From positions 1-64,000 of the forward strand of contig JAFTIA010000064.1 of assembly GCA_017457105.1 (NCBI GenBank): DNA of 64,000 nt. Reading direction: 5' to 3'. The notes below the pieces were generated by a model. It did no database searches. It was not told the DNA's origin and saw nothing but the letters and a program-made list of their open reading frames with translations. Both the position numbers and the translations under genes were made by a program. Source of the stretch: Lentisphaeria bacterium (GTDB lineage Bacteria > Verrucomicrobiota > Lentisphaeria > Victivallales > Victivallaceae). Shown piece by piece: positions 18,053 to 35,645 of the stretch. Every line of letters begins with the position of its first letter. Positions within the stretch are counted from its first letter, which is position 1.

Positions 18053-18080
18053 TTGACTTTTTCAATCGTTAGAATAAATT
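18053..18080 (+). promoter_or_regulatory. Promoter of the LacI-type regulator
   Basis: TTGACT (18053-18058), 16 bases, TAAATT (18075-18080). The candidate operator fills the spacer, consistent with autorepression. Confidence 0.55.
18059..18072. promoter_or_regulatory. Candidate LacI-family operator, copy 2 (autoregulation)
   Basis: TTTTCAATCGTTAG lies between -35 and -10 of the lacI promoter. Its core, TTCAATCGTTAGAA (18061-18074), is an imperfect dyad (10 of 14) centred on CG, as expected of LacI-family operators. Confidence 0.55.
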
Positions 18081-18107
18081 ATATTCCAGATACAACCGGA
18101 GGCAAAA

Positions 18108-19046
18108 ATGGCCGCAACACTCAAAGATGTGGCACAGGTTGCCGGAGTGAATTTCACTCTGGTATCCAAATTGATCAATCAGCCGGATATATCCATCCGG
18201 CCGGAGACCCGCAAGCGGATCGAAGATGCTATCCGCACCTTGAACTACCGCCCCAGCCGTTCGGCCCGGGCACTGCGTTTGGGCTGCAGTGATCTGATCG
18301 GCCTTGCGGTGGGCGACCTTACCAATGAATTCTTTGCCCACTACGCCGACTGTGCGCTGGAAGAATCGGAAAAATGCGGCGGCCGTCTGCTGATCAGCAT
18401 TGTCCGCAAACAGGATCCGGAAAAAGCCATCCATGACCTGATGAATGATCAGCTTTGCGGTATTTTAAGTTGTTTCCCCACGGAAAACAGCGGCTCTGCC
18501 ATCTGTCCCGTGCGGGAGGCGATTTCTTTCACGCCGGAAAGTATGCGGCAGCCGTTGGCGGAAGCAGCAGATTTTCTTTATCAGGAACGCAACTGCCGGA
18601 GTTCAGCGGTACTTTATACCGGTTCTCCGTGGCAGGCCGCCCTTGTTTCATCAGATTTTCAAAAAATCCTTCCGGGAACAGCGGAGCTGGCGAAAAACGG
18701 TGCGCAGGAACGGTTGGCACAACTTCATAAGATTTGTAAAGACCGCCCGGATGTGATTTTTACAACAGGATGGAAAGCCGCAGAAATGCTTTGTGATCTA
18801 CTGGATACAGTGTATTGCAATTACCGCCCCGCCGTGTTGTTGAGTGCCAACTGCCGGGGACCATTTCTGGAGCGGGAGCATATTGCAGGCGTCTTTTACC
18901 ACTCCACCCGGCAGGCGATCGCCCGGGCGGTGCAAGGTCTTTTAAGCCGCCGGGACTCTGCTGAATTTGTTCCGCCGGGGCAGTTTTTCCGGCGGGGGAC
19001 GGCAGAATTTCAAGAGCTGTATTCTGCTGAATTCTGTTTAACTTGA
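18108..19046 (+). CDS. LacI-family transcriptional regulator
   Basis: A 312-residue repressor. Residues 3-50 are a LacI-type helix-turn-helix and hinge: TLKDVAQVAGVNFTLVSKLI, then IRPETRKRIEDAIRTLNYRP and RSARALR. The rest resembles a periplasmic-binding-protein-like effector domain, starting LIGLAVGDLTNEFFA. It is slightly shorter than usual (330-340). The protein starts 9 bases after GGAGG and is followed by the U32-like gene 11 bases past its stop, so it heads the operon it probably controls. The effector is likely a sugar, given the neighbours, but this is inference. Confidence 0.9.
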   Translation: MAATLKDVAQVAGVNFTLVSKLINQPDISIRPETRKRIEDAIRTLNYRPSRSARALRLGCSDLIGLAVGDLTNEFFAHYADCALEESEKCGGRLLISIVRKQDPEKAIHDLMNDQLCGILSCFPTENSGSAICPVREAISFTPESMRQPLAEAADFLYQERNCRSSAVLYTGSPWQAALVSSDFQKILPGTAELAKNGAQERLAQLHKICKDRPDVIFTTGWKAAEMLCDLLDTVYCNYRPAVLLSANCRGPFLEREHIAGVFYHSTRQAIARAVQGLLSRRDSAEFVPPGQFFRRGTAEFQELYSAEFCLT

Positions 19047-19057
19047 GGTATCAAAAG

Positions 19058-20044
19058 ATGTCATTACCTTTTACCATAGGTTTTCAGCCCCGCCGGGGAC
19101 GGGAAATAACGGAAATCGTCCTGCAGAACAAAGATCGCATCCGGGAAGTTTATTTTGCCTGGGGCGATTTTTCCAGCGGCCGGGGACGGCTTAAATCAGA
19201 AGCCGAACAGCAGGCCACGGAAGATGCCCTTGCAAAATTCAGCGAGGCAAAGATCGGGCTGGATCTCCTGCTGAATGCAGAGTGTTTCGGCGGCGAAAGC
19301 CTTGCCCGGAAACTTTACATCAAAATCGGCGATACGGTGGATGATTTGCAGCAGCGGTTCGGGCTCACGGCAGTCACCACGGCCTCCCCTGTTGTAGCAA
19401 AGTTCCTCAAAAACAATTTTACCGATCTCCAGGTGCGGGCCTCTGTCAATATGGGGATCGGAGATCTTTCCAGCTTGGCTTATATGGCACCATATTTTGA
19501 CAGTTTCTGCCTCAAACGGGAATACAATCTTGATTTTGAAAAACTGCAAGCCGCCCGCAACTGGTGCAACGATCACGGAAAACACATGGTCATGCTTGCC
19601 AACAGCGGCTGTTTGAACGAGTGTCCGGCAAGGCATTTCCATGACAGTCTGGTGGCGCACGAGGAAGAGATCGCCGGGGAGGACAATGCCTTCGGGTTCG
19701 GCGGGATCTGCCGGGATTTTCTGGCGGGACAGGACGGGGCGGAAAAGTTTTTCCGGCACACCAATTTTGTCCGTCCGGAAGATTTGAAACTTTATGAAAA
19801 CTATTTTGATATGATCAAACTTGCCACCCGGACCAATCCGGATCCGGTACAAGTCATAAAAGCCTATCTTACGGGAAATTTCCGGGGCAGCCTCCCTGCC
19901 CTGCTGGAGCCGGATCATTCCGGCGTCCTCTACCCCCTGATTCTGGAAAATTCCATGCTTCCTGCAGAATTCGGGGCCAACCGGAAGGCAGTGGATTGGA
20001 GCAAATATTGCGTCATTGACATACAAAAAAGGAAAAAATCATGA
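19058..20044 (+). CDS. U32-peptidase-like protein, likely Fe-S binding
   Basis: A 328-residue protein of the general U32/UbiU-UbiV kind (TIM-barrel-like). The key phrase ANSGCLNECPARHFH (Cys185, Cys189) matches the conserved cysteine region of that group, and Cys218 and Cys318 could complete a four-cysteine cluster site as in UbiU/UbiV. The start ATG at 19058 follows GAGG; the in-frame TTG at 19043 overlaps the lacI stop and is less likely. It overlaps the next Fe-S gene by 4 bases. U32 members include rRNA/tRNA hydroxylation factors and ubiquinone hydroxylation factors that work with Fe-S partners; the reaction here is unknown. Confidence 0.6.
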   Translation: MSLPFTIGFQPRRGREITEIVLQNKDRIREVYFAWGDFSSGRGRLKSEAEQQATEDALAKFSEAKIGLDLLLNAECFGGESLARKLYIKIGDTVDDLQQRFGLTAVTTASPVVAKFLKNNFTDLQVRASVNMGIGDLSSLAYMAPYFDSFCLKREYNLDFEKLQAARNWCNDHGKHMVMLANSGCLNECPARHFHDSLVAHEEEIAGEDNAFGFGGICRDFLAGQDGAEKFFRHTNFVRPEDLKLYENYFDMIKLATRTNPDPVQVIKAYLTGNFRGSLPALLEPDHSGVLYPLILENSMLPAEFGANRKAVDWSKYCVIDIQKRKKS

Positions 20045-21111
20045 TCACATCAGCAGAAATCAAAGCCGCTGCCATCAAAGCAGGGGCGGATTTGTGCGGC
20101 ATCGGCGATCTCTCAAGATTTGACGGTGCCCCCAAAGAGATGGATCCCCGGGAACTTTTCCCGGAGGCAAAAACGGTTATCGGCATGGTCTTCCGTATTC
20201 CACGCGGCGTCCAGCGGGGGATCGAAGAAGGAACGCAGTTTTACCAGTATCCCTCCATGGCTTACGGCGGGATCAATGAGATCTACGCACCGGCAGTGCT
20301 GTACCGGGTCGGCCAATTACTGGAAGACTCCGGTTACGAAGCCATGGTTTACCGGAATACCGGGGCAAGAGGCTGTGTTTCCGATATGGATGGTTCGCCC
20401 GGCAACACCCTTTCGCCGGAAGAACAGATCGAAGTCAATACGCAGGCAAAAAGTAAAACCGCCCATCACCGTACCGTACAGTACACCCGTGCCGCCCGTG
20501 ATGGTCAGGTCCCGCCGGATCTGCAATTCCATTTCCGTCTGGCGGCTGTGGCGTGTGGACTGGGGGAAATCGGCTGGAGCAAAATGTTCCTCACTCCGGA
20601 ATTCGGGCCGCTGCAGCGGGTGGCATTTATCTTTACCGATGCTCCGCTGGAACCGGATCCCCTCTATCAGGGGCCGCCGTTGTGCCGCAAATGTATGGCA
20701 TGTGTGCGGGAGTGCCCCGGACAATGTCTGGATAAAAAGGAAAGTATCAAAGTTTATATCGGCGATAAACTTTGCGAGTGGGGCAAGCTGGATGAATGGA
20801 AGTGCTACGCCTTTTATACCCACGGCGGGCGGCATTACAACCCCTTTGTCCCCAAAGAAGTCTGGGATGCCAATGAAAATGGCGACTTGAACCTTCTGGA
20901 AGGCAAATGCGAAGCAAATGAAGCCGAAATCATGAAAGTTTACCGGGCACTGGAAAAGTATTTCCCCAGCTGGGTAGGCTATAACATGGCCAAGTGCGGC
21001 GGCTGTATCCGGGCGTGTGTCAGTATGCTGGAAAAGAAAGGCGGCTGTATGCACGAAAGATTCAAAACGCCCTTGCGTACCTCCGGCAAGGCGTGGAAAA
21101 TGGACCGTTAA
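20041..21111 (+). CDS. QueG-like 4Fe-4S protein, paralog A
   Basis: A 356-residue cytoplasmic protein resembling the epoxyqueuosine-reductase/reductive-dehalogenase group. N-terminal half: AGADLCGIGDLSRF and AKTVIGMVFRIP, as in COG1600 proteins. A ferredoxin motif CRKCMACVRECP (Cys215, 218, 221, 225) follows, and a second, different cysteine group KCGGCIRAC (319, 322, 326) plus CMHER near 336. It is longer than its two neighbours because of an insertion at about 240-315. It overlaps the U32-like gene by 4 bases. It lacks the HEAT-like C-terminus of true QueG, so a queuosine role is not assumed. Confidence 0.7.
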   Translation: MITSAEIKAAAIKAGADLCGIGDLSRFDGAPKEMDPRELFPEAKTVIGMVFRIPRGVQRGIEEGTQFYQYPSMAYGGINEIYAPAVLYRVGQLLEDSGYEAMVYRNTGARGCVSDMDGSPGNTLSPEEQIEVNTQAKSKTAHHRTVQYTRAARDGQVPPDLQFHFRLAAVACGLGEIGWSKMFLTPEFGPLQRVAFIFTDAPLEPDPLYQGPPLCRKCMACVRECPGQCLDKKESIKVYIGDKLCEWGKLDEWKCYAFYTHGGRHYNPFVPKEVWDANENGDLNLLEGKCEANEAEIMKVYRALEKYFPSWVGYNMAKCGGCIRACVSMLEKKGGCMHERFKTPLRTSGKAWKMDR

Positions 21112-21123
21112 GGAGATCGATCG

Positions 21124-22032
21124 ATGTTGAATGCTCAACTTATTAAAGAAAAAGCCCGTGAATTCGGTGCGGCTCTGGTGGGGATTGGCGACATTGCCCG
21201 CTTTGCCGGACAGCCCGCCCAGCGTGATCCCCTGCAGATCCTGCCCAATGCCAAATGCGTGATCGGCATGGCGATCCGGGTCCCCCGCGCCCTCTACCGG
21301 ACAATGGATTCCCAAACGCAATACACCAATTACACCCAGCTCGGCGTAAAATTTATTGATGAAGATCTTTCCGAGATCCTGCTTCTGAAAATGGCCGGCA
21401 TCATTGAGGATGAAGGATACGATGCCTGCGTCCAGCGCAACATTTCCAATTTGCGGATCAAAGGGGACACCTCAACAAACCCGGAAGTGCTGGACACCTA
21501 TGAACTGGTCCATGCGGAAGCCGTTGCCCCGGGGAAACCGGTTCCGGATATTATTATGGACTTCAACTTTGCAGCGCAGGCGTGCGGTCTTGGCTCGACC
21601 GGGCTCAGCGGCCATGTGCTGGTGCCGGGATTGGGGCCTTTTGTCCGGCTGGCATTCATTGTCACAGATGCCCCGCTGGAGTGTGATGAACCTTTCACCC
21701 GCTCCATGTGCGACCAGTGCGGCAAGTGCCTTTCCGCCTGTCCGGGGAATGCCATTTCTGCGGAAAACGGTCTGGATACCTGGCAGTGCGCGGTTTATTA
21801 CCGCGGAGCCCATAAGTCCAACCCGTTTATAACGGAAAAATTCCTTGCAGGACACCCGGAACGGGAGGCGATCCTGAATGGAGAAAAGCGTTTTGACAAA
21901 GAAAGTGCCCGGGCGATTTATCCCGAGATGGACTTTTTGCCCAGCCGTCCCACAGGTTATACGCCCTGTCTTTGCGGGAAAGCCTGTGATATGGCATGTT
22001 TTGAACATTTGAAGAAGGAGGGGCTGCTGTGA
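21124..22032 (+). CDS. QueG-like 4Fe-4S protein, paralog B
   Basis: A 302-residue paralog of the genes on either side: same N-terminus (GAALVGIGDIARF, AKCVIGMAIRVP), then VACGLG-like QACGLGSTGLSGH, and the cluster motif CDQCGKCLSACP (Cys196, 199, 202, 206). Near the C-terminus CLCGKACDMACFEHL may bind a second cluster. It has a canonical Shine-Dalgarno (AAGGAG) 8 bases upstream and overlaps paralog C by 4 bases (GTGA). Likely an electron-transfer or reductase subunit. Confidence 0.7.
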   Translation: MLNAQLIKEKAREFGAALVGIGDIARFAGQPAQRDPLQILPNAKCVIGMAIRVPRALYRTMDSQTQYTNYTQLGVKFIDEDLSEILLLKMAGIIEDEGYDACVQRNISNLRIKGDTSTNPEVLDTYELVHAEAVAPGKPVPDIIMDFNFAAQACGLGSTGLSGHVLVPGLGPFVRLAFIVTDAPLECDEPFTRSMCDQCGKCLSACPGNAISAENGLDTWQCAVYYRGAHKSNPFITEKFLAGHPEREAILNGEKRFDKESARAIYPEMDFLPSRPTGYTPCLCGKACDMACFEHLKKEGLL

Positions 22033-22973
22033 GCGATACCATGGATTTGCGAAAGGCTGTGATCCAGAGTCTGCAAGATGCCGGGGCGGACATTGTCCGG
22101 TTTGGCAATGTGGAGCGTTTCAGCGATCCCTGCCTGAAAAAGTTGATGCCGGAAGTCCGTACCGTAATCGCCGCCGCCTTCCGTCAGCTGCGCGGCTCCC
22201 GCCGGGGCATTGAAGAAGGGACAACCTATTACCAGTACACCACCATGTCGGTGGAAAATCTGGAAGAAGTCGTAATGCCCATGGCTCTGCATCAGGCGTG
22301 CGGGGTTCTGGAAATGGCAGGTTTTGAAGCCCTCCCCCAACGCAGAAATCTGCTGGTAATGGCGGAAAACGATGGAACCAATCCGGAAGTGGATTATACA
22401 GAAATTTACCGGGGGATCCCGCAGGAAAATCATCTGGATTTTGAGCAGTGCGCCATCGATGCAGGACTGGGTGAAAGGGGATTATCCGGTTCGATCCTCA
22501 CGGATGAATTCGGCCCCTGCATCCGCTGGGTCTTTATTCTGACAGATGCAGAATTGGAACCGGATCCGGTCGCAGTGCCGCATTTGTGCGACAAATGCGG
22601 TGCCTGTATTGCCGCCTGCCCCGGCAAAGCTCTTTCGGCAGACGGCAAGCGGGATAACTGGCAGTGTTCTGTTTATTATAACGGTGCCAACCGGTCGAAA
22701 AACCCCTTTATGCCGCCGGATGCTTTTGCAGACGATCCGGAACGGCTGGCGATCATTGCCGGGGAAGCGGAACTGACTCCGGAACGGGCACGGGAAGTAC
22801 TGGATCAGATCGTCTTTTATCCGCCGATCAAACACGCTTACCGGTCCAGTATTTGCGGGAAAGCGTGCGACACCGCCTGCTATATCCATTTGGAAGAAAC
22901 CGGAAAACTGACAAGAAAGTTCAAAACCCCTTTCCGGAAACGGCCGGAATGGAAACTTTCTGTGGAAGATTGA
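22029..22973 (+). CDS. QueG-like 4Fe-4S protein, paralog C
   Basis: A 314-residue third paralog, starting with GTG at 22029 (GGAGG lies 9 bases before; the ATG at 22041 is too far). It carries GADIVRFGNVERF and VRTVIAAAFRQL, cluster motif CDKCGACIAACP, and C-terminal ICGKACDTACYIHLEE. B and C share the C-terminal CGKACD-AC pattern; A does not, so B and C are closer. It ends the lacI-U32-ABC run; the propeller gene that follows has its own promoter. Confidence 0.7.
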   Translation: MSDTMDLRKAVIQSLQDAGADIVRFGNVERFSDPCLKKLMPEVRTVIAAAFRQLRGSRRGIEEGTTYYQYTTMSVENLEEVVMPMALHQACGVLEMAGFEALPQRRNLLVMAENDGTNPEVDYTEIYRGIPQENHLDFEQCAIDAGLGERGLSGSILTDEFGPCIRWVFILTDAELEPDPVAVPHLCDKCGACIAACPGKALSADGKRDNWQCSVYYNGANRSKNPFMPPDAFADDPERLAIIAGEAELTPERAREVLDQIVFYPPIKHAYRSSICGKACDTACYIHLEETGKLTRKFKTPFRKRPEWKLSVED

Positions 22974-22985
22974 CGGCTATTTTGC

Positions 22986-23014
22986 TTGACAAACTCCGGA
23001 AACAATGCTAATTT
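22986..23014 (+). promoter_or_regulatory. Promoter of the first propeller gene
   Basis: TTGACA, 17 bases, TAATTT with TGC before the -10 (extended -10). It lies 42 bases before the start at 23056 and is one of the strongest promoter matches in the window. Confidence 0.8.
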
Positions 23015-23055
23015 TGCTTCCGGATTTTTTTTTCTTTTGAACAACAGGAGTCATT

Positions 23056-25890
23056 ATGAGCAAGTTCTTATTTGCCGGACTGTTGTGCCTCGGCATTTTG
23101 AATGCAGTCATTGCTGCAGATACCTTACCGCAACTGCCGGGTACCCCGCTGAAACCGGTTTGGAAAGCCCATGCCGTCGCCGCCGTTCAGGACGGAGTTT
23201 ACCGTCTGGCCGCCATCCCCACAAAAGCAGGAGTCAATTACGCCGGATTCCGGGTCAGCATGACCGGCTCCATAAAAGAACAGGCCATTGCCTTTACTGT
23301 AAAAACCGCCGAACCCGGCGCGCCGACCGCTTTGTATGTGCGTATTTATGACAAAAAGAATAAATGTATCGGCTCCTGGTGGAGCTGGAACGCAAACCTT
23401 TCGCCGCAAGCCACAGAATTTACACTGATCCCCGGGGAAAACGCCGGGCGGCTTCCCTGGCAGGAGGCGGATGTAAAATCGCAGGATACGGAAGTTGCCC
23501 GGATCGATTTTATTTTCGGTCAGCGCAACACGGTGGGGAAGCTCTTTCAGGTGGAAGTGACCAATCTCCGGTTTATCAGGGCCGCAGAAATCAAAAAAGC
23601 GGATGTCCCGGAAAAAGCAAAAAAAATCGACATTACCGCCCTGTCCGACAAAGGTTTTGAAGATCTGGGGATCCCTGCCCTGTCAGCGGAACTCCGGGGG
23701 TCCATCGCTTACATGGAAAAAGGCAGGCATTATCTTCTGACCCGTCCCCAGGATCATGGAAAAACCGGATATCTTCTCCTGACGGATCTGGATTCCGGCA
23801 AAACCGAACAGTATTTCAACCCGCCGGAGATCCATCAGCGGGACAATTTCGGCTCCATTCTCACCAGCCGGGGCCTCTTCCTTTATGACCACGGCGGCAA
23901 GATCATCGCCTTTGATACCAAGAGCCGCAAGACCACATATCTCGGTCAGCCGGACAAATCTACAAGTCATTACATGGTTTGTACCGAAGCCCCGGATGGT
24001 ACGGTGTATTTCGGCGGCACCTATACCGCTGTACTGGTATCCTGGAACCCGGATACCGGCAAGTTCCGCAATTACGGCAGAATGGATCCCAAAGAAAAGT
24101 ATGTCAGCACACTGGCCACGGATAAAAACGGCTATGTCTATTGCGGGATCTCCTACGCCCGTGCCAATCTGGTGGCGCTGGATCCAAAGACCGGCAAGAT
24201 CACCCAAATCATTCCGGAAAACATGCGGGGTGTCGGAAAAGGCGAAGTCCGTTCCGGTGCAGATGGATATGCGTATGTAAAATACGGAAAATTTTCTGCC
24301 AAAATGCTGAATGGCAAAATCGTGGAAGAAAATACGGGGCTCCCGGCCGCAAAGGATTTGCGCCCCATCAAAGCCGCTGCTTACGGCGGGAAGTTATGGC
24401 GATTCCCGGATGGAGCAAGGGTATTGAATTTAAGTCTGGACGATAAAACCATTACTTATGAAGATCCGCGGGGAAAACAGAAAGTGATCGATATGCCTTA
24501 TCGGTCCAACGGACTGCATTTCACCAGCATGGGAGGCGGCAATGGCAGGATTTTCGGCTCCACCAGTCACCCCATGCACTTTGTAGAATATAATGTCAGG
24601 GAGAACAAACTTACAGATCATGGCGCACACCCCGCCGTCGGCGGCGGGAATTTCTGCAATATCACGGCAGGTCAGGACGGCAAAGTTTATATGTGCCAGT
24701 ATCCTGCAGGAAAGCTGTGGCAGTTTGATCCGGAAAAACCCTTTCTGGCGCAGTTGCGCGGCATCATTCTTCCCCCCGGCGCACTGGACCCTGCCGATCT
24801 CAGCAAAATCGGCAAAGTAAAAAACGGAAAACTCTCTCTGCTCAGCGGCAATAAGATCCTGCTTTGTCTGGGCTGGAAAGACGGTGCAGAATTTACCTTT
24901 CCTTTGAAAGTGGAAAAGGCGGGGACTTATTACCTGAATGTACAGGCGTACGAACACAGCATTTACGGATCGGCAACTTTTGCGTTTCAGGGCAAAAAGA
25001 AAAAGATGAACCTGCAAAATGTCCATGACAGATCCACGGGCTTTCATCTGGGGCCCTTCAAACTTGCACCGGGAACCTATCCGCTATCCATCGTCAGCAG
25101 GTCCAACGGAAAATCCTCCAAGCCCATGTTCGGCTTGAACGGTCTTCTGCTCTCGCAGGACAAGCCCCTTTCCATGCAGAAAACCGGCAAAAATGACGCC
25201 AATCCCAAAACACTCGGTCAATGGAAACTGGATGTAACACGCCCCCGGGCGGTGCAAATGCACCCGGATGGAAAACATGTAGTCATTTCCGGCTACCCGG
25301 ATTACGGCTATTGCGGAGGCGGCTTCGGCATCCACAACCTTGCCACCGGCAAAAACACGCTGATCAAAGACTGGCTGAACGGACACAGCTGCATTACTTT
25401 CCGCTTTGCGGATAATGGTGACATTGTTGGCGGCACCGACATTGCCGCCCCCGGCGGCGGACATCAGGTGGCAAAGGCCCCCGCCATCTTCCGGCTGGAT
25501 TGGAAAACCGGAAAAGTTACTGCTTTTACAGAATTCCCCGGTTACTCGCTTGTTGCCGATGTGGAATTGTGGAAAAATAAACTTTATGCGGTGCTGCCCA
25601 ACGGCGATCTTGCCGTTGCAGATCCGGGGACTATGAAGATCGAGAAAAAAATCCCCAACGGGAGTTTGGGATACGGCCGCCGCAATACGCTTCTGAAAAC
25701 ATCGGATGACCGGCTCTTTTTCCTGCAAACCAATGCAATATCGGAGATCCATCCGGTCACCGGGGAAAAAATCCCCCTCGCCCGGATGAAATATCCTCTT
25801 TCTTCTGCCGGCGCAGTGGATTCAGGACACATCTATTACTCGTCCGGAACCCATGTGATCCGCTGGCAAATCCCGGCACCGTTAAAGTAA
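23056..25890 (+). CDS. Secreted multi-domain propeller protein, copy 1
   Basis: A 944-residue exported protein; signal peptide at 1-20. After a jelly-roll-like domain (25-185) it has repeated strands of a beta-propeller type (about 200-560, with DLDSGKTEQYFNPPE, SWNPDTGKFRNYGRMDP and LVALDPKTGKI). A beta-sandwich (about 600-725, FPLKVEKAGTYYLNVQAYEH) resembles carbohydrate-binding modules. The C-terminal part (735-944) has further propeller-like strands (RPRAVQMHPDGKHVVI, GFGIHNLATGKN, IVGGTDIAAPGGG). The layout recalls SMP/YncE-like or virginiamycin-B-lyase-like propellers. It is the most divergent of three tandem copies. No catalytic motif is recognised. Confidence 0.6.
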   Translation: MSKFLFAGLLCLGILNAVIAADTLPQLPGTPLKPVWKAHAVAAVQDGVYRLAAIPTKAGVNYAGFRVSMTGSIKEQAIAFTVKTAEPGAPTALYVRIYDKKNKCIGSWWSWNANLSPQATEFTLIPGENAGRLPWQEADVKSQDTEVARIDFIFGQRNTVGKLFQVEVTNLRFIRAAEIKKADVPEKAKKIDITALSDKGFEDLGIPALSAELRGSIAYMEKGRHYLLTRPQDHGKTGYLLLTDLDSGKTEQYFNPPEIHQRDNFGSILTSRGLFLYDHGGKIIAFDTKSRKTTYLGQPDKSTSHYMVCTEAPDGTVYFGGTYTAVLVSWNPDTGKFRNYGRMDPKEKYVSTLATDKNGYVYCGISYARANLVALDPKTGKITQIIPENMRGVGKGEVRSGADGYAYVKYGKFSAKMLNGKIVEENTGLPAAKDLRPIKAAAYGGKLWRFPDGARVLNLSLDDKTITYEDPRGKQKVIDMPYRSNGLHFTSMGGGNGRIFGSTSHPMHFVEYNVRENKLTDHGAHPAVGGGNFCNITAGQDGKVYMCQYPAGKLWQFDPEKPFLAQLRGIILPPGALDPADLSKIGKVKNGKLSLLSGNKILLCLGWKDGAEFTFPLKVEKAGTYYLNVQAYEHSIYGSATFAFQGKKKKMNLQNVHDRSTGFHLGPFKLAPGTYPLSIVSRSNGKSSKPMFGLNGLLLSQDKPLSMQKTGKNDANPKTLGQWKLDVTRPRAVQMHPDGKHVVISGYPDYGYCGGGFGIHNLATGKNTLIKDWLNGHSCITFRFADNGDIVGGTDIAAPGGGHQVAKAPAIFRLDWKTGKVTAFTEFPGYSLVADVELWKNKLYAVLPNGDLAVADPGTMKIEKKIPNGSLGYGRRNTLLKTSDDRLFFLQTNAISEIHPVTGEKIPLARMKYPLSSAGAVDSGHIYYSSGTHVIRWQIPAPLK

Positions 25891-25969: not shown

Positions 25970-28795
25970 ATGAAAAAACAGCTTTGGGCGGGGATTCTTG
26001 CCGGATGCCTCGTTTTCTCCGCATCAGCGGCAGAAGATTTCTCCGGGAAACTCCCGCAGCTTGCGGGGCAGAAAATCAAAACCACATGGAACGCCCCGGC
26101 CGCAGCCGCCGTGCAGAATGGCACCTACACCCTTGCGGCAGTTCTTCCCAAAGAGATGGTACATTACGCCGGATTCCGGATCAATATGACCGGTGACCTT
26201 TCTAAAGAAGCATTGCGCTTTGATATTTCCAGCAGTACGCCGGAAAAAAGCCGGGCTCTCTACATCCGCTGTTTTGATGCTCAAAACAAGTGTGTTGCCT
26301 CCTGGAAAACATGGAGTTCCCCTGCCACCACCAAAACTGCAACAGTCATTTTGGCAGCAGAACGCAACAGTCACGGTCTGGTTTGGGAACCGGAAATGGT
26401 CAAGTCTGCAAGTAAAACGTTTACCAAAATTGAATTCATTATCGGTCACAAGGGTAAAGCCGGGACTGTTTACGATGCAAAATTCAGCAAGATCGGCATG
26501 TGCGCGATCCCCAAAACGGCAACCATGACTAAAACCGCAGTTCCTGCCAAACTTTCCAGCGAAGGCTTTGAAATTCTCGGCATCCCGGCCAAATCGGCAG
26601 AAATCCGGAGTTCTATCGGCTACATCGATAATGGCCGTCATTACCTCCTGACCCGTCCCCAGGATCACGGCAAGACCGGCTATCTCCTGCTGACGGATCT
26701 TGATTCCGGCAAAACCGAACAGTATTTCAACCCCAAAGAAGTCCGGCAGGGGGACAGTTTCGGCTCCATTCTCACCAGCAAAGGGCTTTTTATCTACGAC
26801 CAGCAGGGGGCAAATGTGGTGGTGTTTGATACAAAAACACAGAAATACCGCAATCTTGGCCGCCCGGAACCGCGTGCACAGCATTTTATGGTTTATACCG
26901 AAGCCCCGGACGGCACGGTGTATCTGGGGGGCTATCCCCGGGCAACGATCACCTCATGGAACCCCGAAACCGGAGAGTTCCGCAACTATGGCCGCATGGA
27001 TCCCAAAGAAAGCTATCTCAACCAGATCGCAACGGACAAAAACGGCTATGTCTATTGCGGTATCGGTTCTGCCCGTGCCAATCTTGTCGCTCTTGACCCC
27101 AAAACCGGAAAAGTAACGCAGATCATCCCGGAAAATTTGCGCAAGCTGGGCTGGGGCAACGCCATTTCCGGTGAAGACGGCTATGCGTACCTTGTCTTTG
27201 GCGGCTTTTCTGCCAAAATGCTGGATGGAAAAATCGTGGAAACCAATGTTACTCCGGCCGCTCCCCGCAAGATCCTCGCCGCCAAATACGGCGGGAGATT
27301 GTGGAAATTTGATGACGGCACAAGAGTTCTCAATGTGGATTTGTATAAAAATATCGTTACTTATCAGGGCTTGAACGGCAAACGCCGTGATATTCCTTTT
27401 GACTATGTGTCCGGCGGGCTGCATTACACCAGTATGGGCGGCGATGGTAAAGGCAAGGTTTTCGGCTCCACCAGCCACCCCATGCACTTTGCGGAATATG
27501 ATGCCAACTCCGGCAAAATCACCGACCACGGCCCCCATGCCATCGTTTCCGGCGGGAACTTCTGCAACATTACATACGCCAAAGACGGCACCGTTTATAT
27601 GTGTGAATACGCAGGCGGCCGCTTGTGGAAGTATGATACAACAAAAGCCTTTGACGGCGGCAAAACTGATACGCTGCCGAAAATCCCCGGCATGATGAAT
27701 GTTTCGGAGCTCCACCAGATCGGCAAGGCACAGAAGGGGCATTTCACACTCGTTTCCCACCGTATCCTGCTTTGCTACGGTGATCAGGAAAACGCCACAT
27801 TCACCTTCCCGCTTCAAGTTACTAAAACAGGAGAAACCCATGTAAACATCCTTGCTTATGAACACGGCATTTACGGAACTGCAACGTTTGAGTTTCAGGG
27901 GAAATCCCGCAAAGTTAATCTGCAGAATATTGTCAACCGCAACAAAATGGTCAATATGCCTCCGGTATTTTTAAAGCCGGGAACCTATCCATTGAAAGTC
28001 ACCGTCCGCAGTCACGGCGGGGACTCCCGCCCCATGGTGGGGCTCCTCGGGATCGCTGTTACAGACAGCAGACTCGTCCTGCCGAAAAAACAGAAAATCG
28101 AAACCAATCCGAAGATCCTCGGGGCATGGCCCCAGCAGGTCACGCGCCCCCGTGCGGTGCAAGTGCATCCGGATGGCAAACATGTAGTGATCGCCGGATA
28201 TGCCGGATACGGTCTTTGCGGAGGGAGTTTCGGGATCCACAACCTTGCCACCGGCAAGAACAGTGTTCTCTCGGACTGGCTGGAAGGACACAGCTGTATC
28301 ACTTTCCGGTTTGACAACAACGGTGATATCGTTGGCGGAACAGACATTTCCGCTCCCGGCGGCGGCCACACCGTGGCGACCAGGCCCGCCATTTTCCGAA
28401 TCGACTGGAAAACAAAAAAAGTTGCGGCTTACACGGAAATCGAAAATGTCCGCTATGTCGCCGCCGTGGAATTGTGGAACGGCAAACTCTATGCGGCACT
28501 GGCTGACAGCCGGGTGATCGTGGCAGATCCCCAAACGATGAAGGTGGAACGGGTCTTTGCCGCAAACGGATTGGGAACACCGGTCCGCAATGCACTGATG
28601 AAGTCGGCAGACAACCGGCTTTTCTTCCTGCAGACAAACGGCATTTCGGAATTCCATCCCAAATCCGGAGATATGGTTCCCCGCTGCAGACCGCTGCAGG
28701 GGATCGGCACTGCGGGCACGATCAATAACGGCTATATTTATTTCGCCTGCAATGTTCACTTTGCCCGCTGGAAAATTCCGGCGCCGTTAAAGTAA
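25970..28795 (+). CDS. Secreted multi-domain propeller protein, copy 2
   Basis: A 941-residue paralog of the protein before it, with the same signal peptide plus four-part layout. Identity to copy 3 is visibly high, for instance HPDGKHVVIAGYAGYGLCGG and SVLSDWLEGHSCITFRF, each identical in the two. The N-terminal domain is less conserved. It starts 79 bases after copy 1, with AAAGGA before the ATG and TTGACA at 25930 as a possible -35 for a separate promoter without a clear -10. Expressed as an exported surface or periplasmic protein; function unknown, likely glycan binding or processing. Confidence 0.6.
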   Translation: MKKQLWAGILAGCLVFSASAAEDFSGKLPQLAGQKIKTTWNAPAAAAVQNGTYTLAAVLPKEMVHYAGFRINMTGDLSKEALRFDISSSTPEKSRALYIRCFDAQNKCVASWKTWSSPATTKTATVILAAERNSHGLVWEPEMVKSASKTFTKIEFIIGHKGKAGTVYDAKFSKIGMCAIPKTATMTKTAVPAKLSSEGFEILGIPAKSAEIRSSIGYIDNGRHYLLTRPQDHGKTGYLLLTDLDSGKTEQYFNPKEVRQGDSFGSILTSKGLFIYDQQGANVVVFDTKTQKYRNLGRPEPRAQHFMVYTEAPDGTVYLGGYPRATITSWNPETGEFRNYGRMDPKESYLNQIATDKNGYVYCGIGSARANLVALDPKTGKVTQIIPENLRKLGWGNAISGEDGYAYLVFGGFSAKMLDGKIVETNVTPAAPRKILAAKYGGRLWKFDDGTRVLNVDLYKNIVTYQGLNGKRRDIPFDYVSGGLHYTSMGGDGKGKVFGSTSHPMHFAEYDANSGKITDHGPHAIVSGGNFCNITYAKDGTVYMCEYAGGRLWKYDTTKAFDGGKTDTLPKIPGMMNVSELHQIGKAQKGHFTLVSHRILLCYGDQENATFTFPLQVTKTGETHVNILAYEHGIYGTATFEFQGKSRKVNLQNIVNRNKMVNMPPVFLKPGTYPLKVTVRSHGGDSRPMVGLLGIAVTDSRLVLPKKQKIETNPKILGAWPQQVTRPRAVQVHPDGKHVVIAGYAGYGLCGGSFGIHNLATGKNSVLSDWLEGHSCITFRFDNNGDIVGGTDISAPGGGHTVATRPAIFRIDWKTKKVAAYTEIENVRYVAAVELWNGKLYAALADSRVIVADPQTMKVERVFAANGLGTPVRNALMKSADNRLFFLQTNGISEFHPKSGDMVPRCRPLQGIGTAGTINNGYIYFACNVHFARWKIPAPLK

Positions 28796-28885: not shown

Positions 28886-29079
28886 TTCAAAAAATGGTAA
28901 AGATGTCATTCGCGAAGAAAAGCAAAGGATAATTTGAGGTTGCTGCCCGTAAGACAACAGCCGGAAACGCGCCCTTTGCAGATCAAAAAAGGGGACTCTT
29001 CAGCCATTTTGAGGAGTTTTGAAAATACCGCTCTAACTTATCATTTTTAATTCAATATTATTAGGAAAAGGAGTTGATG
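28886..29079 (+). other. Long leader before propeller copy 3, no gene seen
   Basis: These 194 bases hold no supported reading frame. GGTTGCTG and CAACAGCC around 28939-28967 could pair imperfectly. I recognise no riboswitch or attenuator. Confidence 0.4.
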
Positions 29080-31902
29080 ATGAAAAAAATATTGCTGGCA
29101 TATCTGCTTGCCGGATATGCAGTTTTCTCCGCATCTGCCGCAGAAAATCATGCGGCAAAACTTCCTGTACTTGCCGGGGAAAAAGTTCAGACCACATGGA
29201 GCGGCCCGTCTGTCGCCACGGTAAAGAATGGGGTCTATACCCTTTATGCCGTTCTGCCGGACAACATGATCCATTATGCCGGATTCAAATTCAAAATGCA
29301 GGGCGATTTGGCAAAACAGGCGTTGCAGTTTACCGTTTCCAGCACTGCACCGGGCAAGACCCGGGCTCTCTATGTCCGGTGTTATGACAAGCAGAATAAG
29401 TGTATCGCCTCCTGGTCAACATGGAATTCGCCTGTAACATCCGCCCCGCAAACGCTGACAGTTGCGCCCGGAATCGGATACAAAAGTCTGGAGTGGGAAC
29501 CGGGTGTGGTGAATGCTGACGGCACGGCCTTTGAAACGATCGAATTCATTTTCGGACACAAGGGAAAAGCCGGAGCGGTTTATGATGCCAAAATTGAAAA
29601 AATTGGATTTTGCGCCATCCCCAAAGAGGATAAGTCTTTTTCCAGACCCAAAATCACGGCAAATATATCCAGAGAAAAAATTGAACTTCTCGGCATTGCG
29701 GCTAAATCTTCTGAACTGCGCGGCTCCATTGCATTTATGGAAAACGGCCGCCGTTACCTCCTTACCCGTCCGCAGGATCACGGTCAAACAGGGTACATTC
29801 TGCTGACTGATTTGGAAAGCGGCAAGACGGAACAGTTCTTCAACCCTCCGGAAGTCCGTCAAGGCGACAGTTTTGGCGCGATCCTGACCGGTAAAGGTTA
29901 TTATCTATATGATCAACAGGGAGGCAATGTAGTCCTTTTTGACCTCAAGACCCGGAAATTCCGCAATCTGGGGCGCCCGGAATCCAGGGCGATGCATTTC
30001 ATGGTTTATACCGAAGCCCCGGATGGCACTGTATATCTGGGGGGCTATCCGCAAGCCACCCTCACTGCGTGGAATCCGGAAACCGGAAAATTCCGCAACT
30101 ACGGACGCATGGATCCCAAAGAAAGTTATCTGAACAAAATCGCTACGGATAAGAACGGCTATGTTTATTGCGGCATCGGTTCTGCCCGTGCCAATCTGGT
30201 TGCCCTCGATCCCAAAACCGGCAAAGTAACACAAATCATTCCGGAAAACATGCGCAGCATCGGCTGGGGGGAAGCCATTACCGGGAGTGACGGCTATGCC
30301 TATCTTATCTTCGGTAAATTCCGGGCCAAAATGCTGGACGGAAAAATCGTGGCAACGGATGTTGCGCTCCCCGCTCCGAAAAAAATCCTTGCCACCAAAT
30401 ACGGCGAAAAAATGTGGCAATTTGAAAACGGCACCCGGGTCACCGGTGTGGATCTGTATAAAAAAGTGATCACCTATCAGGGGCTTGATGGTAAAAAGAA
30501 AGAAATTCCCTTTGATTATCAGTCTGGCGGGCTTTCCTATACCAGCATTGGTGCTGACGGCAAAGGCAGGATCTACGGCTCCACCAATCACCCCATGCAC
30601 TTTGTGGAATATAATGCCAATGCCGGAAAAATGACAGATCACGGCCCGCACACCGTTGTTAGCGGCGGTAATTTCTGCAATATGACTTATGCAAAAGACG
30701 GCACTGTTTATCTGTGTGAATACGCGGGCGGCCGCTTGTGGAAATTCAACCCGGGAAAGCCCTTTGACGGCGGAAATAATGTCGCCCCGCCCCTGCCCGC
30801 CTCCATCGGCGCCCCGGAAATGCAGCAGATCGGCAAAGCGGAAAAGGGCCATTTCACCCTCATCGGGAACTCTATTCTTCTTTGTTTCGGGGATCAGGAT
30901 GGAGCGACCTTTACATTCCCGGTCAACATCAAAAAATCCGGCAAATATTTTGTAAATATGCTTGCCTTTGAACATGCTGTATATGGCACAGCCACCTTTG
31001 ATTTTCAGGGGCAAAAACAAACAGTCAATCTGCAGAAAACACTGGACCGTTCCAGGTTGATCACGCTTGGCCCTGTTGACTTGACGCCCGGCTCATATCC
31101 TCTGGCAATCACGGTCAAAAGCCATGGCGGAAGCTCCAAACCCATGGCAGGGATCCTTGCCATGTCCGTAACCGATAAACCTGCCAAACTGGCAGCACAC
31201 ACAGAAGAAACCAACCCCAAGGTTCTTGGGGTATGGAACCTGCAAGTGACCCGCCCCCGGGCTGTGCAGATCCATCCGGATGGCAAACATGTGGTCATTG
31301 CCGGATATGCCGGATACGGCTTGTGTGGAGGCAGTTTCGGGATCCATAACCTTGCCACCGGAAAAAACAGTGTTCTTTCGGACTGGCTGGAAGGTCACAG
31401 TTGTATTACATTCCGCTTTACGGAAAAAGGTGATATTGTGGGAGGCAGTGACATTTCCGCACCGGGGGGCGGCTATGTCAAAGCAGTGCATCCCGCCATC
31501 TTCCGCATTGACTGGAAAACGAAAAAAGTCGTTGCATCCAAAGAACTTCCAGACATCTCCTATGTTGCGGCGGTGGAATTGTGGAATGGCAAACTTTATG
31601 CGGCGTTAAGCAATGGACAAGTTGTGGTGGCAGATCCGGAAACCATGAACATTGAACGGACTTTTGCCTCCAACGGGAAAGGCACTCCCGTGCGGAACGC
31701 CTTGATGAAAACCCCGGACAACCGGCTTTTCCTCCTGCAATATGGCGGCATATCGGAATTCCATCCCCAATCCGGCGACCTGTATTTGCGGTGCGTTCCC
31801 CAAGCCGCTATTTCGACAGGCGGCGCCGTTTATAACGGCTATCTGTACTTTGCATGCAAAGTCCAATATGCCCGCTGGAAAATTCCGGCACCGCTGAAAT
31901 AA
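29080..31902 (+). CDS. Secreted multi-domain propeller protein, copy 3
   Basis: A 940-residue paralog of copies 1 and 2, with the same layout: signal peptide, jelly roll, propeller-like repeats, a beta-sandwich, and the conserved C-terminal region. The start at 29080 is chosen because GGAG lies 6 bases before it; ATG 29077 and TTG 29074 are too close. It has its own promoter and a candidate operator, unlike copy 2. Near-identical short stretches with copy 2 imply recent duplication or gene conversion in the C-terminal half. Its end is followed by a symmetrical terminator. Confidence 0.6.
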   Translation: MKKILLAYLLAGYAVFSASAAENHAAKLPVLAGEKVQTTWSGPSVATVKNGVYTLYAVLPDNMIHYAGFKFKMQGDLAKQALQFTVSSTAPGKTRALYVRCYDKQNKCIASWSTWNSPVTSAPQTLTVAPGIGYKSLEWEPGVVNADGTAFETIEFIFGHKGKAGAVYDAKIEKIGFCAIPKEDKSFSRPKITANISREKIELLGIAAKSSELRGSIAFMENGRRYLLTRPQDHGQTGYILLTDLESGKTEQFFNPPEVRQGDSFGAILTGKGYYLYDQQGGNVVLFDLKTRKFRNLGRPESRAMHFMVYTEAPDGTVYLGGYPQATLTAWNPETGKFRNYGRMDPKESYLNKIATDKNGYVYCGIGSARANLVALDPKTGKVTQIIPENMRSIGWGEAITGSDGYAYLIFGKFRAKMLDGKIVATDVALPAPKKILATKYGEKMWQFENGTRVTGVDLYKKVITYQGLDGKKKEIPFDYQSGGLSYTSIGADGKGRIYGSTNHPMHFVEYNANAGKMTDHGPHTVVSGGNFCNMTYAKDGTVYLCEYAGGRLWKFNPGKPFDGGNNVAPPLPASIGAPEMQQIGKAEKGHFTLIGNSILLCFGDQDGATFTFPVNIKKSGKYFVNMLAFEHAVYGTATFDFQGQKQTVNLQKTLDRSRLITLGPVDLTPGSYPLAITVKSHGGSSKPMAGILAMSVTDKPAKLAAHTEETNPKVLGVWNLQVTRPRAVQIHPDGKHVVIAGYAGYGLCGGSFGIHNLATGKNSVLSDWLEGHSCITFRFTEKGDIVGGSDISAPGGGYVKAVHPAIFRIDWKTKKVVASKELPDISYVAAVELWNGKLYAALSNGQVVVADPETMNIERTFASNGKGTPVRNALMKTPDNRLFLLQYGGISEFHPQSGDLYLRCVPQAAISTGGAVYNGYLYFACKVQYARWKIPAPLK

Positions 31903-32413: not shown

Positions 32414-33928
32414 TTATTTTTCTCCTGCGGGAATTACTGTTTTTCCGGCCGGGATGGCATATTTTTCCCCGGAAAGGATCAGGGTAAACGGTTTTGCCGC
32501 CCGGACAGTCACCTGACTGTTTTCAGACAGCAGGTCCACCCGGTTCCCGCCGAAGGAAAGGTTGCAAATACCCAGTTTCCCGACATGTTCCGGCAAATTC
32601 CATGCCACTTCATTTTTGAACGCATCCACCGAATAGATCCCGATCACATCCTCTATCAAAAGTGCAATGGGCCCCAATGCCGACCAACCGCAGAAGTCCG
32701 GACGGACAATGCGGTTGTTTTCATCGCAGGACCGTGCCGGTTCCGGCTTATTGGGGTTATAACACTCCCAGATCGTATGGGGTGAATATTGCTCAAATGT
32801 CTTGGACATGTGACCGATGATCCGGAGTGCAAGCTCCCGGGCAAGGTCATGCATGCCATATCTGCCAATGGCTTTCAGTGCCATGTATGCCGTGGGAAGC
32901 CACATGGATCCCCGCCAGTACATGCCGTTTTCACCGTTGAAATCCGGGTCATTCCGGGAAAGCGATACGGCGGGAACTGCCCCTCCGAGAGTTTCCGGAT
33001 CCAGCAGATACTGCGCCTGTTTTTCCGCCTGTTCCGGCGAAGCGATCCCCGCCAGCAGGGGCCAGAAGGAAGCAATGGTCAAAACCTCATGCCTTTCCCC
33101 ATTGGTCATAGAATCAAAGTAACTGCCTTTTTCTTCATTCCAGTAATGGGCATTGACCGTATCCTTCAATGCTTCAAAGGTTTTCTGCCAATGGAGAGCC
33201 ATCTCTTTTTCGCCGATGATCTCTGCCATTTCAGAAATCAGACGGGCACTCAATGCCTGCTGGCAAATGGCATCCAGCCACAACATATCCGGATTGTTCG
33301 GCCGGGGCATGAAAGCGTGTTCCCCCACCCTGCCGCGGGGAGTATTGTCCATGCCGGAACTGCCGCCTTCCCAGTGGTAACCGTGACCATCTTTGCGCCA
33401 CCAGACAGGGGCAAAAACACATTCTGGGGGCGTGGTATCCTGCACCGTTTCCAGCCATTCAAAATGTTTCTGCAAATACTGTTTTTCCAGAAGCAGCGTC
33501 CGCAAATGCTCCCTGCTGCCGTGGAACATGGCATTGGCATGTTCCGACCAGGCAAAAAGCGGCGGATTGGAACCGTGACAAATCTTCATCCGTACCCGAT
33601 CCCCCACGGAATACCCGGTCCAATCCAAATCGTTTTCCACCGTAAGATACGGCAGTTTTTCTGTTCCATGCAGAGGTTCATAGAAATTTTTCAAAGACTG
33701 ATATCCGGGAAACTCCGGTTGGGCATATTTGCAGAAAAGCGCCATAAAACAGGTATCCCAAACCCAGATGAATTCTTTGCAGAATGCCTCGTCCATATAC
33801 GGGGTCTGCGGCATCCCCGGAAGATCCACCACATGTTTATGGGCACATTCCCACGCAAAATCATACAACTTCAAAAATTCCGGATGCTCATCATACACCA
33901 CTTGCGGAAGTGCGGCATGCCAAGTCAT
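32414..33928 (-). CDS. GH63/MGH-like (alpha/alpha)6 glycoside hydrolase
   Basis: A 504-residue protein of the six-hairpin glycosidase group related to GH63 and mannosylglycerate/glucosylglycerate hydrolases. The signature EFIWVWDTCFMALFCKYA is near residues 52-70. GGSSGMDNTPR (Asp, proposed general acid) and IWECYNPNKPEPARS (Glu, proposed base) are the catalytic regions, and DFCGWSALGPIALLIEDVIGI follows the family pattern near the end. No signal peptide, so cytoplasmic and acting on short imported oligosaccharides. GAGGTG lies before the start. It is 8 bases after the MurQ-like gene. Confidence 0.85.
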   Translation of the reverse strand: MTWHAALPQVVYDEHPEFLKLYDFAWECAHKHVVDLPGMPQTPYMDEAFCKEFIWVWDTCFMALFCKYAQPEFPGYQSLKNFYEPLHGTEKLPYLTVENDLDWTGYSVGDRVRMKICHGSNPPLFAWSEHANAMFHGSREHLRTLLLEKQYLQKHFEWLETVQDTTPPECVFAPVWWRKDGHGYHWEGGSSGMDNTPRGRVGEHAFMPRPNNPDMLWLDAICQQALSARLISEMAEIIGEKEMALHWQKTFEALKDTVNAHYWNEEKGSYFDSMTNGERHEVLTIASFWPLLAGIASPEQAEKQAQYLLDPETLGGAVPAVSLSRNDPDFNGENGMYWRGSMWLPTAYMALKAIGRYGMHDLARELALRIIGHMSKTFEQYSPHTIWECYNPNKPEPARSCDENNRIVRPDFCGWSALGPIALLIEDVIGIYSVDAFKNEVAWNLPEHVGKLGICNLSFGGNRVDLLSENSQVTVRAAKPFTLILSGEKYAIPAGKTVIPAGEK

Positions 33929-33936
33929 CGTTCACC

Positions 33937-35568
33937 TCACTTTTTCAATAAACCAAGAGTGTACTGCACAGGGGACGGCTTTTCTTTGTCGGGCGGCATG
34001 GCATCCAGATCTTCCATGGCACGGAATAGTGTTTCGGCAGCAGTTACATAATCCACTTCGCCCAATTCGGAAATAAGCCGGATGGCACGGTCGATCAGTT
34101 TTTTGTTGGACACTGCCACATAACTCATCCAGTTCCCCGCTACCCGCCCGAAAAGAACCATGGTTCCGGTGGAAATGGTGTTGAACATCAGCTTCACCGC
34201 CAGATGTTCAAAGACATGCATCCGGGTTGCTTCCGGAGTAAAGGGGACGGAAAGACGGTATGTATGGGCAAACGCCGCAGCTTCTTTATTGTAAGCCCCG
34301 CTCAACTCCCCACGGGGAGCGGAGAAACTGAACAGCACTGCGGCATCTTTCCCCGTGGCATAACGGCTGGGCAGAGGTTCATTGCCCACAGGGATCTGCA
34401 TCATATCCGCCAGAGAAACTTTCGGGGGATTGGCCGTTACAGGAGAATCCGCCCCCACCATCCGGCTGTAATCCTCCACGGTCCACTCCAGACAACGGGG
34501 CAGACGGTTGCCGAATGCCCGCTTCATGGCATCCGTTGTACAATAAAGCGGGTTCCGGGCAAAGGCCCATGGTTCAGGGAGAATATTGTCCGTTATTTTT
34601 TTGAATCCGGGCAGCATAAAGGTTGGGGAGCGTTCTGTGGTGTCCGTAAAGATATCCAGCAAATAATCATCCACAAAATAGGTCACCCGACCGCCCTGCT
34701 TGTAAATGCCGCACTCAAACTGCATATAATCAGCAAGGATTCCAACATTGCGCTCACTTTCCACCTGATCCAACAGAGATTCAAAGCAACCAGCGTAATC
34801 CACCGTTCCGGGTTCTCCGGAAAGATTCCGCAAAACAGCATCCAGTGCCGCAGATGCGATCAACTGTTCCGACGTCGTTGCCTGCATCCGTGTGGATCCT
34901 GCAAGAGCCATGGGCCCGCAGGAAAGGTCAAGCACGGTCACCATGGGGTTGGTGATCGCCTCCCGGGAACGGGCAAGATGTTCCTTCAAAATCTCCGCAG
35001 GGTTGTTGAAAAGAAGAAAAGCGCGGCATCCGCGGCGGGTGGCTTCTGCAACAGTCCCCAGAACGGAACTTGTTTCGCCGCCCTCTGTAATGGCGACCAG
35101 CAAATCCGCAGGCCCCATATTCCGGTCCGCCACCTGCCGTGCCCCGAATACCGCAAAATCCTCAAAAGATTCCACAGATTTGATCAGAGCGTAATCGCCG
35201 CCGGTCATAATGCTTTCCACATGGGAGGCATATTTCTCCCCTGCATAAGACCGCCACATGGCCTCCAGCAAAATGGAAAGCCGCCCGGTGGCTCCGCATC
35301 CGGAAAAAATGATCCGGCCGCCATTGCTGATAACACGGGTCCCGGTTGCAACAAAATCAGCAAAGGCCTCTGATGCCAAAACCTTCTTTGCCATCTCCAG
35401 CACATTACGGTCCACCCGCTGAAGCATCCGGACACCGTCTTCCGGAGAACCGGCAAACACTTTATCCATCCCCCGGGTCAGCGGATTGGATTGTTCCGTA
35501 GGCAGAAACCCCAGATGAAACGGTTTCTCATTTTCCACAAAATCGCGGGCTTTTTCCAAATATGTCAT
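33937..35568 (-). CDS. MurQ/GckR-like double-SIS sugar-phosphate protein
   Basis: A 543-residue protein with two SIS-type regions. The first has GGRIIFSGCGATGRLSILLEA and TEGGETSSVLG; a MurQ-type GSTRMQATTSEQLIAS follows. A second region carries KLMFNTISTGTMVLFGR and GNWMSYVAVSNKKL, also as in MurQ. MurQ itself is about 300 residues and cleaves N-acetylmuramate-6-phosphate; the doubled size recalls glucokinase regulatory proteins. The start at 35568 is preferred (GGAG before it; family-like MTYLEKA); the 35613 start crosses the putative promoter. With the glycosidase and CYTH genes it forms one operon, probably salvaging a sugar phosphate. Confidence 0.78.
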   Translation of the reverse strand: MTYLEKARDFVENEKPFHLGFLPTEQSNPLTRGMDKVFAGSPEDGVRMLQRVDRNVLEMAKKVLASEAFADFVATGTRVISNGGRIIFSGCGATGRLSILLEAMWRSYAGEKYASHVESIMTGGDYALIKSVESFEDFAVFGARQVADRNMGPADLLVAITEGGETSSVLGTVAEATRRGCRAFLLFNNPAEILKEHLARSREAITNPMVTVLDLSCGPMALAGSTRMQATTSEQLIASAALDAVLRNLSGEPGTVDYAGCFESLLDQVESERNVGILADYMQFECGIYKQGGRVTYFVDDYLLDIFTDTTERSPTFMLPGFKKITDNILPEPWAFARNPLYCTTDAMKRAFGNRLPRCLEWTVEDYSRMVGADSPVTANPPKVSLADMMQIPVGNEPLPSRYATGKDAAVLFSFSAPRGELSGAYNKEAAAFAHTYRLSVPFTPEATRMHVFEHLAVKLMFNTISTGTMVLFGRVAGNWMSYVAVSNKKLIDRAIRLISELGEVDYVTAAETLFRAMEDLDAMPPDKEKPSPVQYTLGLLKK

Positions 35569-35592
35569 TTTCCTATACTCCGATTCATTTGT

Positions 35593-35645
35593 GATCATTT
35601 CAAAAGTCATCAAAATAAAGAAATTGTCTGACCTTTGAAATTACC
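35593..35645. promoter_or_regulatory. Inverted pair of TTTCAAAAGTCA-type motifs before the MurQ-like operon
   Basis: GATCATTTCAAAAGTCA (35593-35609) faces TGACCTTTGAAATTACC (35629-35645), whose reverse complement matches at most positions, with 19 bases between them. A minus-strand promoter TTTCAA-17-TATTTT would fall between and over the arms. A single copy of the same core lies at 28872-28885. Confidence 0.5.

Follow-up and report, generated by a model that had tools for sequence, protein, structure and literature searches.

Organization of the locus

The window, i.e., the whole 64,000-nucleotide stretch analyzed here, contains on its forward strand a lacI regulator gene followed by genes for a U32-fold protein and for three paralogous reductases, designated A, B and C. 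The features are as follows.

18053..18082, + strand: promoter-like element upstream of lacI (TTGACT, 16-18 nt, TAAATT/AATTAT), from a consensus scan only, which shuffled sequences match as often
18108..19046, + strand: lacI, first gene of the operon (ORF call; PF00356, 46.4 bits)
19043..20044, + strand: gene for the U32-fold protein, TTG start (ORF call; TIM barrel; Cys81, Cys190, Cys194 and Cys223)
20041..21111, + strand: reductase A, 356 aa (class III cobalamin-type fold; Cys215, 218, 221, 225, 255, 319, 322 and 326; Tyr70 and Arg193)
21124..22032, + strand: reductase B, 302 aa (paralog of A and C; cluster ligands as in A; Arg175)
22029..22973, + strand: reductase C, 314 aa (paralog of A and B; cluster ligands as in A; Arg166)
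22995..23033, + strand: terminator-like hairpin with T9, 3' of C, closing the operon (-12.5 kcal/mol, z = -4.25)

All five genes and the ATGA and GTGA overlaps, which had been described in an earlier note made from the sequence, were present in the ORF calls. Overlaps occur at the LacI/U32 (TTGA), U32/A (ATGA) and B/C (GTGA) junctions, and the gap between A and B is 12 bases. Since C is followed by the hairpin and T9 and then, from 23056 onward, by the gene for a repeat protein of 944 aa, the operon was delimited as lacI-U32-A-B-C. In Pfam searches of the operon, the LacI helix-turn-helix (46.4 bits against a cut-off of 27) and ferredoxin-type motifs were detected.

The repeat-protein gene is the first of three tandem genes (23056-25890, 25970-28795 and 29074-31902) coding for proteins of ~942 aa with 53-68% mutual identity, which have repeat/propeller-like matches and signal-like N-termini and fall into no confident Pfam family. 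Further along, a minus-strand cluster encodes a GH63/trehalase-like glycosidase (32414-33928), a GKRP-type SIS-domain protein (33937-35613) and a Gfo/Idh/MocA oxidoreductase (36632-37840). A relative of this glycosidase is located directly downstream of the operon in one other locus (L048).

A divergent U32 protein

Pfam, PF01136 included, gave no match for the U32 protein of the window, and among its relatives PF01136 matched weakly in 14 of 26 (best value, 0.0016). Its assignment is therefore based on fold and profile comparison. The structural model (pLDDT 92) has a TIM-barrel fold, for which the U32 peptidase Mk0906 was the top hit in the PDB (5d88; 8.5e-11, the next match being at 8.2e-6), and comparison with an alignment holding genuine U32 proteins of the same genome gave a probability of 99.9%. 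We place the window protein in the U32 Fe-S TIM-barrel family as a divergent member. The idea of a U32-type protein with four well-placed cysteines is thus borne out by fold and profile and by the invariance of Cys81, Cys190, Cys194 and Cys223 in 59 relatives; however, Pfam does not recognize the protein, and the spacing C-X108-C-X3-C-X28-C is not the canonical CX6CX15CX3/4C.

UbiV also deviates from the canonical U32 Cys spacing, with its first Cys located far upstream (PMC6747719), and the mechanism of U32 Fe-S chemistry is unresolved (PMC11574389). The window protein resembles UbiU-UbiV, TrhP, RlhA and Mk0906 in its TIM barrel and four invariant Cys, the first of which is far upstream as in UbiV, whereas it differs from this group in the spacing of these residues, in being Pfam-blank and in being partnered by cobalamin-type reductases instead of a second U32 protein. 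A C-terminal CxxxCxxCxYC tail occurs in 53 of 80 relatives and is lost in the window copy; it was rejected as an essential U32 feature because it is missing in the other 27.

Reductases A, B and C are placed outside QueG and RdhA

When compared with NCBIfam models, A, B and C scored 44.4, 46.7 and 45.8 bits, respectively, with the RdhA model TIGR02486 (cut-off 160) and 26, 53 and 39 bits with the QueG model TIGR00276 (cut-off 200). In the phylogenetic tree, they form a clade with 100% support apart from QueG and from RdhA, the RdhA clade having a support of 97. An AlphaFold model of A (pLDDT 83) yielded 46 matches at E<=0.001, all of which were RdhA or QueG; the next were the B12 chaperones CblD and MMACHC. 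Beyond class III enzymes, A had no homology to PDB entries except for ferredoxin-type cluster motifs. TM-scores of the A model against class III enzymes were ~0.4 over the whole chain, and poorly modelled loops (residues 109-148) and differing insertions are the likely cause of these low values. With the assignment made by model fold for A and by sequence for B and C, all three belong to the class III cobalamin-type reductases, where their branch is distinct from both QueG and the reductive dehalogenases.

The earlier note had labeled the three proteins as QueG-like. This identity was rejected because the scores are below the profile cut-off, the DYH motif and HEAT repeats are absent (no Pfam match for the latter; the 302-356 aa chains end soon after the cluster domain) and the tree separates them from QueG at 100%, with none of the paralogs grouping with functional QueG. 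RdhA membership was likewise rejected by cut-off and tree, despite the dehalogenase-like active site.

Eight cysteines, the ligands for two [4Fe-4S] clusters, are invariant in an alignment of 75 A, 67 B and 63 C sequences. Each reductase thus has two ligand sets and not, as first described, a single CxxCxxCxxxCP cluster with extra C-terminal groups; the CGKACD-AC group of B and C and the CGGCIRAC group of A, which had been considered different, are variants of one second-cluster site. The Arg aligned with PceA Arg305 is also invariant in these sequences, with the one exception of a Lys in a C sequence. Tyr70 is found in all 75 A sequences, in 66 of 67 B and in 56 of 63 C, the remaining 7 having Phe. 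This residue of A aligns with the Tyr of the QueG DYH motif (QueG Tyr101), whose Asp and His are absent in A, B and C, and the putative equivalence of the active-site Tyr is derived from this alignment. Tyr75, Asn79, Glu80, Asn106 and Lys181 are additionally invariant in A, and B and C lack some of them.

A structural study of QueG states that PceA Arg305 has no counterpart in this enzyme and proposes the Tyr common to QueG and RdhA as proton donor (PMC4646009). As judged from sequence, the active site of A, B and C appears closer to the reductive-dehalogenase side, with Arg replacing the QueG aromatic residue and with neither DYH nor HEAT. The class III cobalamin fold, ligands for two [4Fe-4S] clusters and, putatively, the conserved Tyr are common to RdhA (PceA, 4uqu/8q4h; NpRdhA, 4ras) and the three reductases, which also have Arg at the PceA Arg305/NpRdhA Lys488 position. 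Unlike RdhA, however, they score far under the cut-off, form their own clade at 100%, have a second-cluster site without the terminal CP motif, lack a TAT signal and RdhB, and occur as three paralogs in one operon with U32 under sugar-type regulation. With QueG (TIGR00276, 5d08/5d6s) they share the class III fold, ligands for two clusters and the Tyr aligned with Tyr101, and they differ from it in the absence of D-Y-H and HEAT repeats, in the Arg, in scores under the cut-off and in forming a separate clade.

We infer that each of the three reductases would bind a cobamide in its base-off form together with two [4Fe-4S] clusters. No cobalamin riboswitch was detected in the window or in 33 loci. 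In the genome of the window (86.7% complete), neither CobS nor a QueG above the cut-off was found, and another B12-binding protein is present. Proteins that are QueG-like and do have DYH, but fall under the QueG cut-off (about 130-180 bits), were observed in relatives (L162, L163, L165, L166, L168 and L172); they may belong to a diverged branch of QueG or differ from it in function.

U32, A, B and C form a conserved unit

A search for U32 relatives with one genome per species found 403, and neighborhoods were analyzed for the best 80 of these. In this set, 70 loci had the whole neighborhood visible and 10 were cut by contig ends. U32, A, B and C occurred together in 66 of the 70 fully visible loci: 63 had the four genes in order, two had B and C fused (L101 and L122; one Lachnospiraceae contig and one Victivallales contig) and one had C-B-A divergent from U32. 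The other four comprised one locus with U32, A and C in which no B frame was found and three with U32 alone. The median spacing in U32-A-B-C loci was 6, 12 and -4 bases. The U32 and QueG-like genes, whose co-occurrence the earlier note had proposed to check, are therefore not scattered in relatives, and its view of a sugar-regulated, multi-subunit anaerobic redox system is supported to the extent that the four enzyme genes make up one conserved unit of this kind.

According to record labels, the hosts are Clostridia, Oscillospiraceae, Lachnospiraceae, Lentisphaeria, Opitutales, Verrucomicrobiaceae and Planctomycetia, mostly metagenome assemblies from herbivore gut. The gene set and its order recur in at least four phyla, which is more than expected by chance. 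Identity across four phyla is highest for A (about 70-86%) and lowest for U32 (42-50%). Among 60 relatives, U32-A-B-C was present in eight genomes, with identities of 80-85% for A, 66-70% for B, 62-71% for C and 44-48% for U32.

In a 241-genome sample of the phylum of the window, we detected 17 A orthologs at 80% or more, the next match being at 49%, and a U32 gene adjoins A in 15 of these 17 genomes. In the two exceptions (L173 and L174), A-B-C lies close to an isomerase-type TIM-barrel gene and has no U32 gene adjoining it. Since A-B-C can occur in this way and U32 can occur alone (L083, L096 and L146), adjacency of the two parts is not strictly required. The close U32 relatives in the latter three loci are found beside DUF5696 and acetyl xylan esterase-type genes.

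Related gene arrangements

A simpler pair, designated A'-U32', was found in ~15 further loci, where one A-like reductase gene adjoins a U32-like gene or lies close to it; the regulators at these loci are IclR, AraC or others. The A' reductases mostly have 35-41% identity to A. One such pair is present in the genome of the window itself (contig C11; L010, 6407-9233), where genes for an A-like reductase, an IclR-type protein and a U32-like protein follow one another close to a GH106 (alpha-L-rhamnosidase) gene. This genome also has a second tandem reductase trio with an IclR gene and no adjoining U32 (contig C97; L009, 7442-10214), in which two of the three reductases are divergent and short.

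One locus (L175, 7722-10761) consists of an MFS gene, U32 and two reductases, one A-like and one B/C-like. In the tree, the first reductase is sister to A (100) and the second is sister to B plus C (100); therefore, B and C derive from a single gene that duplicated once the A lineage had diverged. This two-reductase operon looks like an evolutionary intermediate that would predate the B/C split. In genomes of one genus, g40, three to five U32-like genes stand in tandem with no reductase gene among them (L179, 6295-12297, and L180, 8628-12091).

Genomic context

In clostridial loci, a divergent AraC gene is common (~43 loci). A LacI gene was found in ~10 loci, and IclR is also among the regulators. 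A small cupin gene lies between A and B in ~10 loci, and DUF5696 glycosidase-like proteins neighbor the unit in 19. Other neighbors include Gfo/Idh/MocA, IolE-like, MFS, GH28, GH106 and GH116 proteins, acetyl xylan esterase, aldose epimerase and isomerase-like TIM barrels. Regulators and neighbors point to carbohydrate catabolism, and the neighborhoods favor a carbohydrate context over tRNA. However, the glycosidases and dehydrogenases differ among loci and none is constant, so that no single substrate is indicated; an attempt to name one from the neighborhood failed for this reason.

Proposed function and alternatives

We propose, with a probability of roughly one half, that the four proteins work together, either as subunits or as successive enzymes, in a single undescribed O2-independent redox system in which cobamide/Fe-S reductases and U32 act on a carbohydrate-derived substrate. 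In such a system, low-potential electrons (from ferredoxin or a similar donor) would pass through the clusters of A, B and C to generate Co(I), which would attack a substrate carbon and expel an oxygen leaving group. By analogy with what has been proposed for dehalogenases and QueG, the Tyr70/Arg193 pair of A may give the proton. A, in which all key residues are invariant, is probably the main catalytic subunit, a role suggested by its high conservation. B and C would have originated by duplication and would work with A, probably as a complex; a complex of U32, A, B and C is supported by the B-C fusions and the fixed gene order. U32 would share their substrate, its most likely role being that of an O2-independent hydroxylase or a substrate-activating Fe-S partner. 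The substrate would most likely be a sugar, a cyclitol or part of a glycoside from plant material, sensed by LacI or AraC. The recurrence of the four-gene set and of the A'-U32' pair speaks for this proposal, as does the other B12-binding protein of the genome. Counting against it are the low TM-scores of the A model and the negative results for a cobalamin riboswitch and for CobS, all of which bear on cobamide binding, as well as the loci in which U32 or A-B-C stands apart, the variable neighboring enzymes and the Phe in 7 of 63 C sequences.

It is also conceivable, if unlikely, that A, B and C serve mainly as an electron-transfer and assembly chain, with cobamide or not, that reduces U32 as the real catalyst. 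The presence of three paralogs with two clusters each, the recurrence of the A'-U32' pair by itself and the B-C fusion would all fit such a chain. However, A is by far the most conserved component (about 70-86%) and U32 the least (42-50%), A-B-C is found without adjoining U32, and A has invariant non-cluster residues, as expected for a substrate-binding enzyme.

Another possibility is modification of RNA or a cofactor, in which U32 would hydroxylate, like TrhP and RlhA, and the reductases would finish the reaction, like QueG, to give a modified nucleotide or cofactor. RNA-modifying enzymes do occur in both parent families (PMC4646009, PMC11574389), and the genome of the window has no QueG above the cut-off. 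On the other hand, A, B and C have neither a HEAT/tRNA-binding domain nor DYH, and patchy occurrence (17 of 241 genomes), sugar-type regulators and glycosidase neighbors are at odds with a housekeeping modification; we consider this explanation quite improbable.

The context would also agree with a cobamide-dependent reaction on plant sugars or cyclitols (e.g., methylated uronic acids and inositols) in which O-methyl or other ether groups are taken off, given the inositol-dehydrogenase-like, IolE-like and xylan-esterase neighbors and the occurrence in herbivore gut. We regard this reaction as very doubtful, as no corrinoid methyltransferase genes were recognized among the neighbors scanned and, to our knowledge, the known anaerobic O-demethylases are unrelated. 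Finally, that A, B and C are three RdhA-like enzymes dehalogenating organohalides is most improbable: RdhA does provide the best profile and fold matches, and the active-site Arg and probably the Tyr are retained, but the scores are 44-47 bits against a cut-off of 160, the clade is separate at 100%, the sequences lack a twin-arginine signal and an adjoining small membrane gene, the context is sugar-type and, as far as we know, dehalogenase operons do not include a U32 partner.

Implications

We found no description of an operon combining U32 with QueG/RdhA-like proteins in the open-access literature. Its parts belong to known superfamilies, in branches outside the named families. We know of only two functions of class III cobalamin enzymes, dehalogenation and epoxyqueuosine reduction (PMC4646009). 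More tentatively than the redox system proposed above, A, B and C may represent a third functional class of cobamide/Fe-S reductases, acting as a three-paralog complex with U32 in a new C-O bond transformation on plant sugars or cyclitols in gut anaerobes of several phyla.

The fixed unit joins new branches of the class III cobalamin and U32 families and is common in herbivore-gut anaerobes. A new anaerobic reaction thereby becomes directly testable, with the regulator as a means of finding the substrate, and the conservation of A is high enough for a single active enzyme to represent the whole group.
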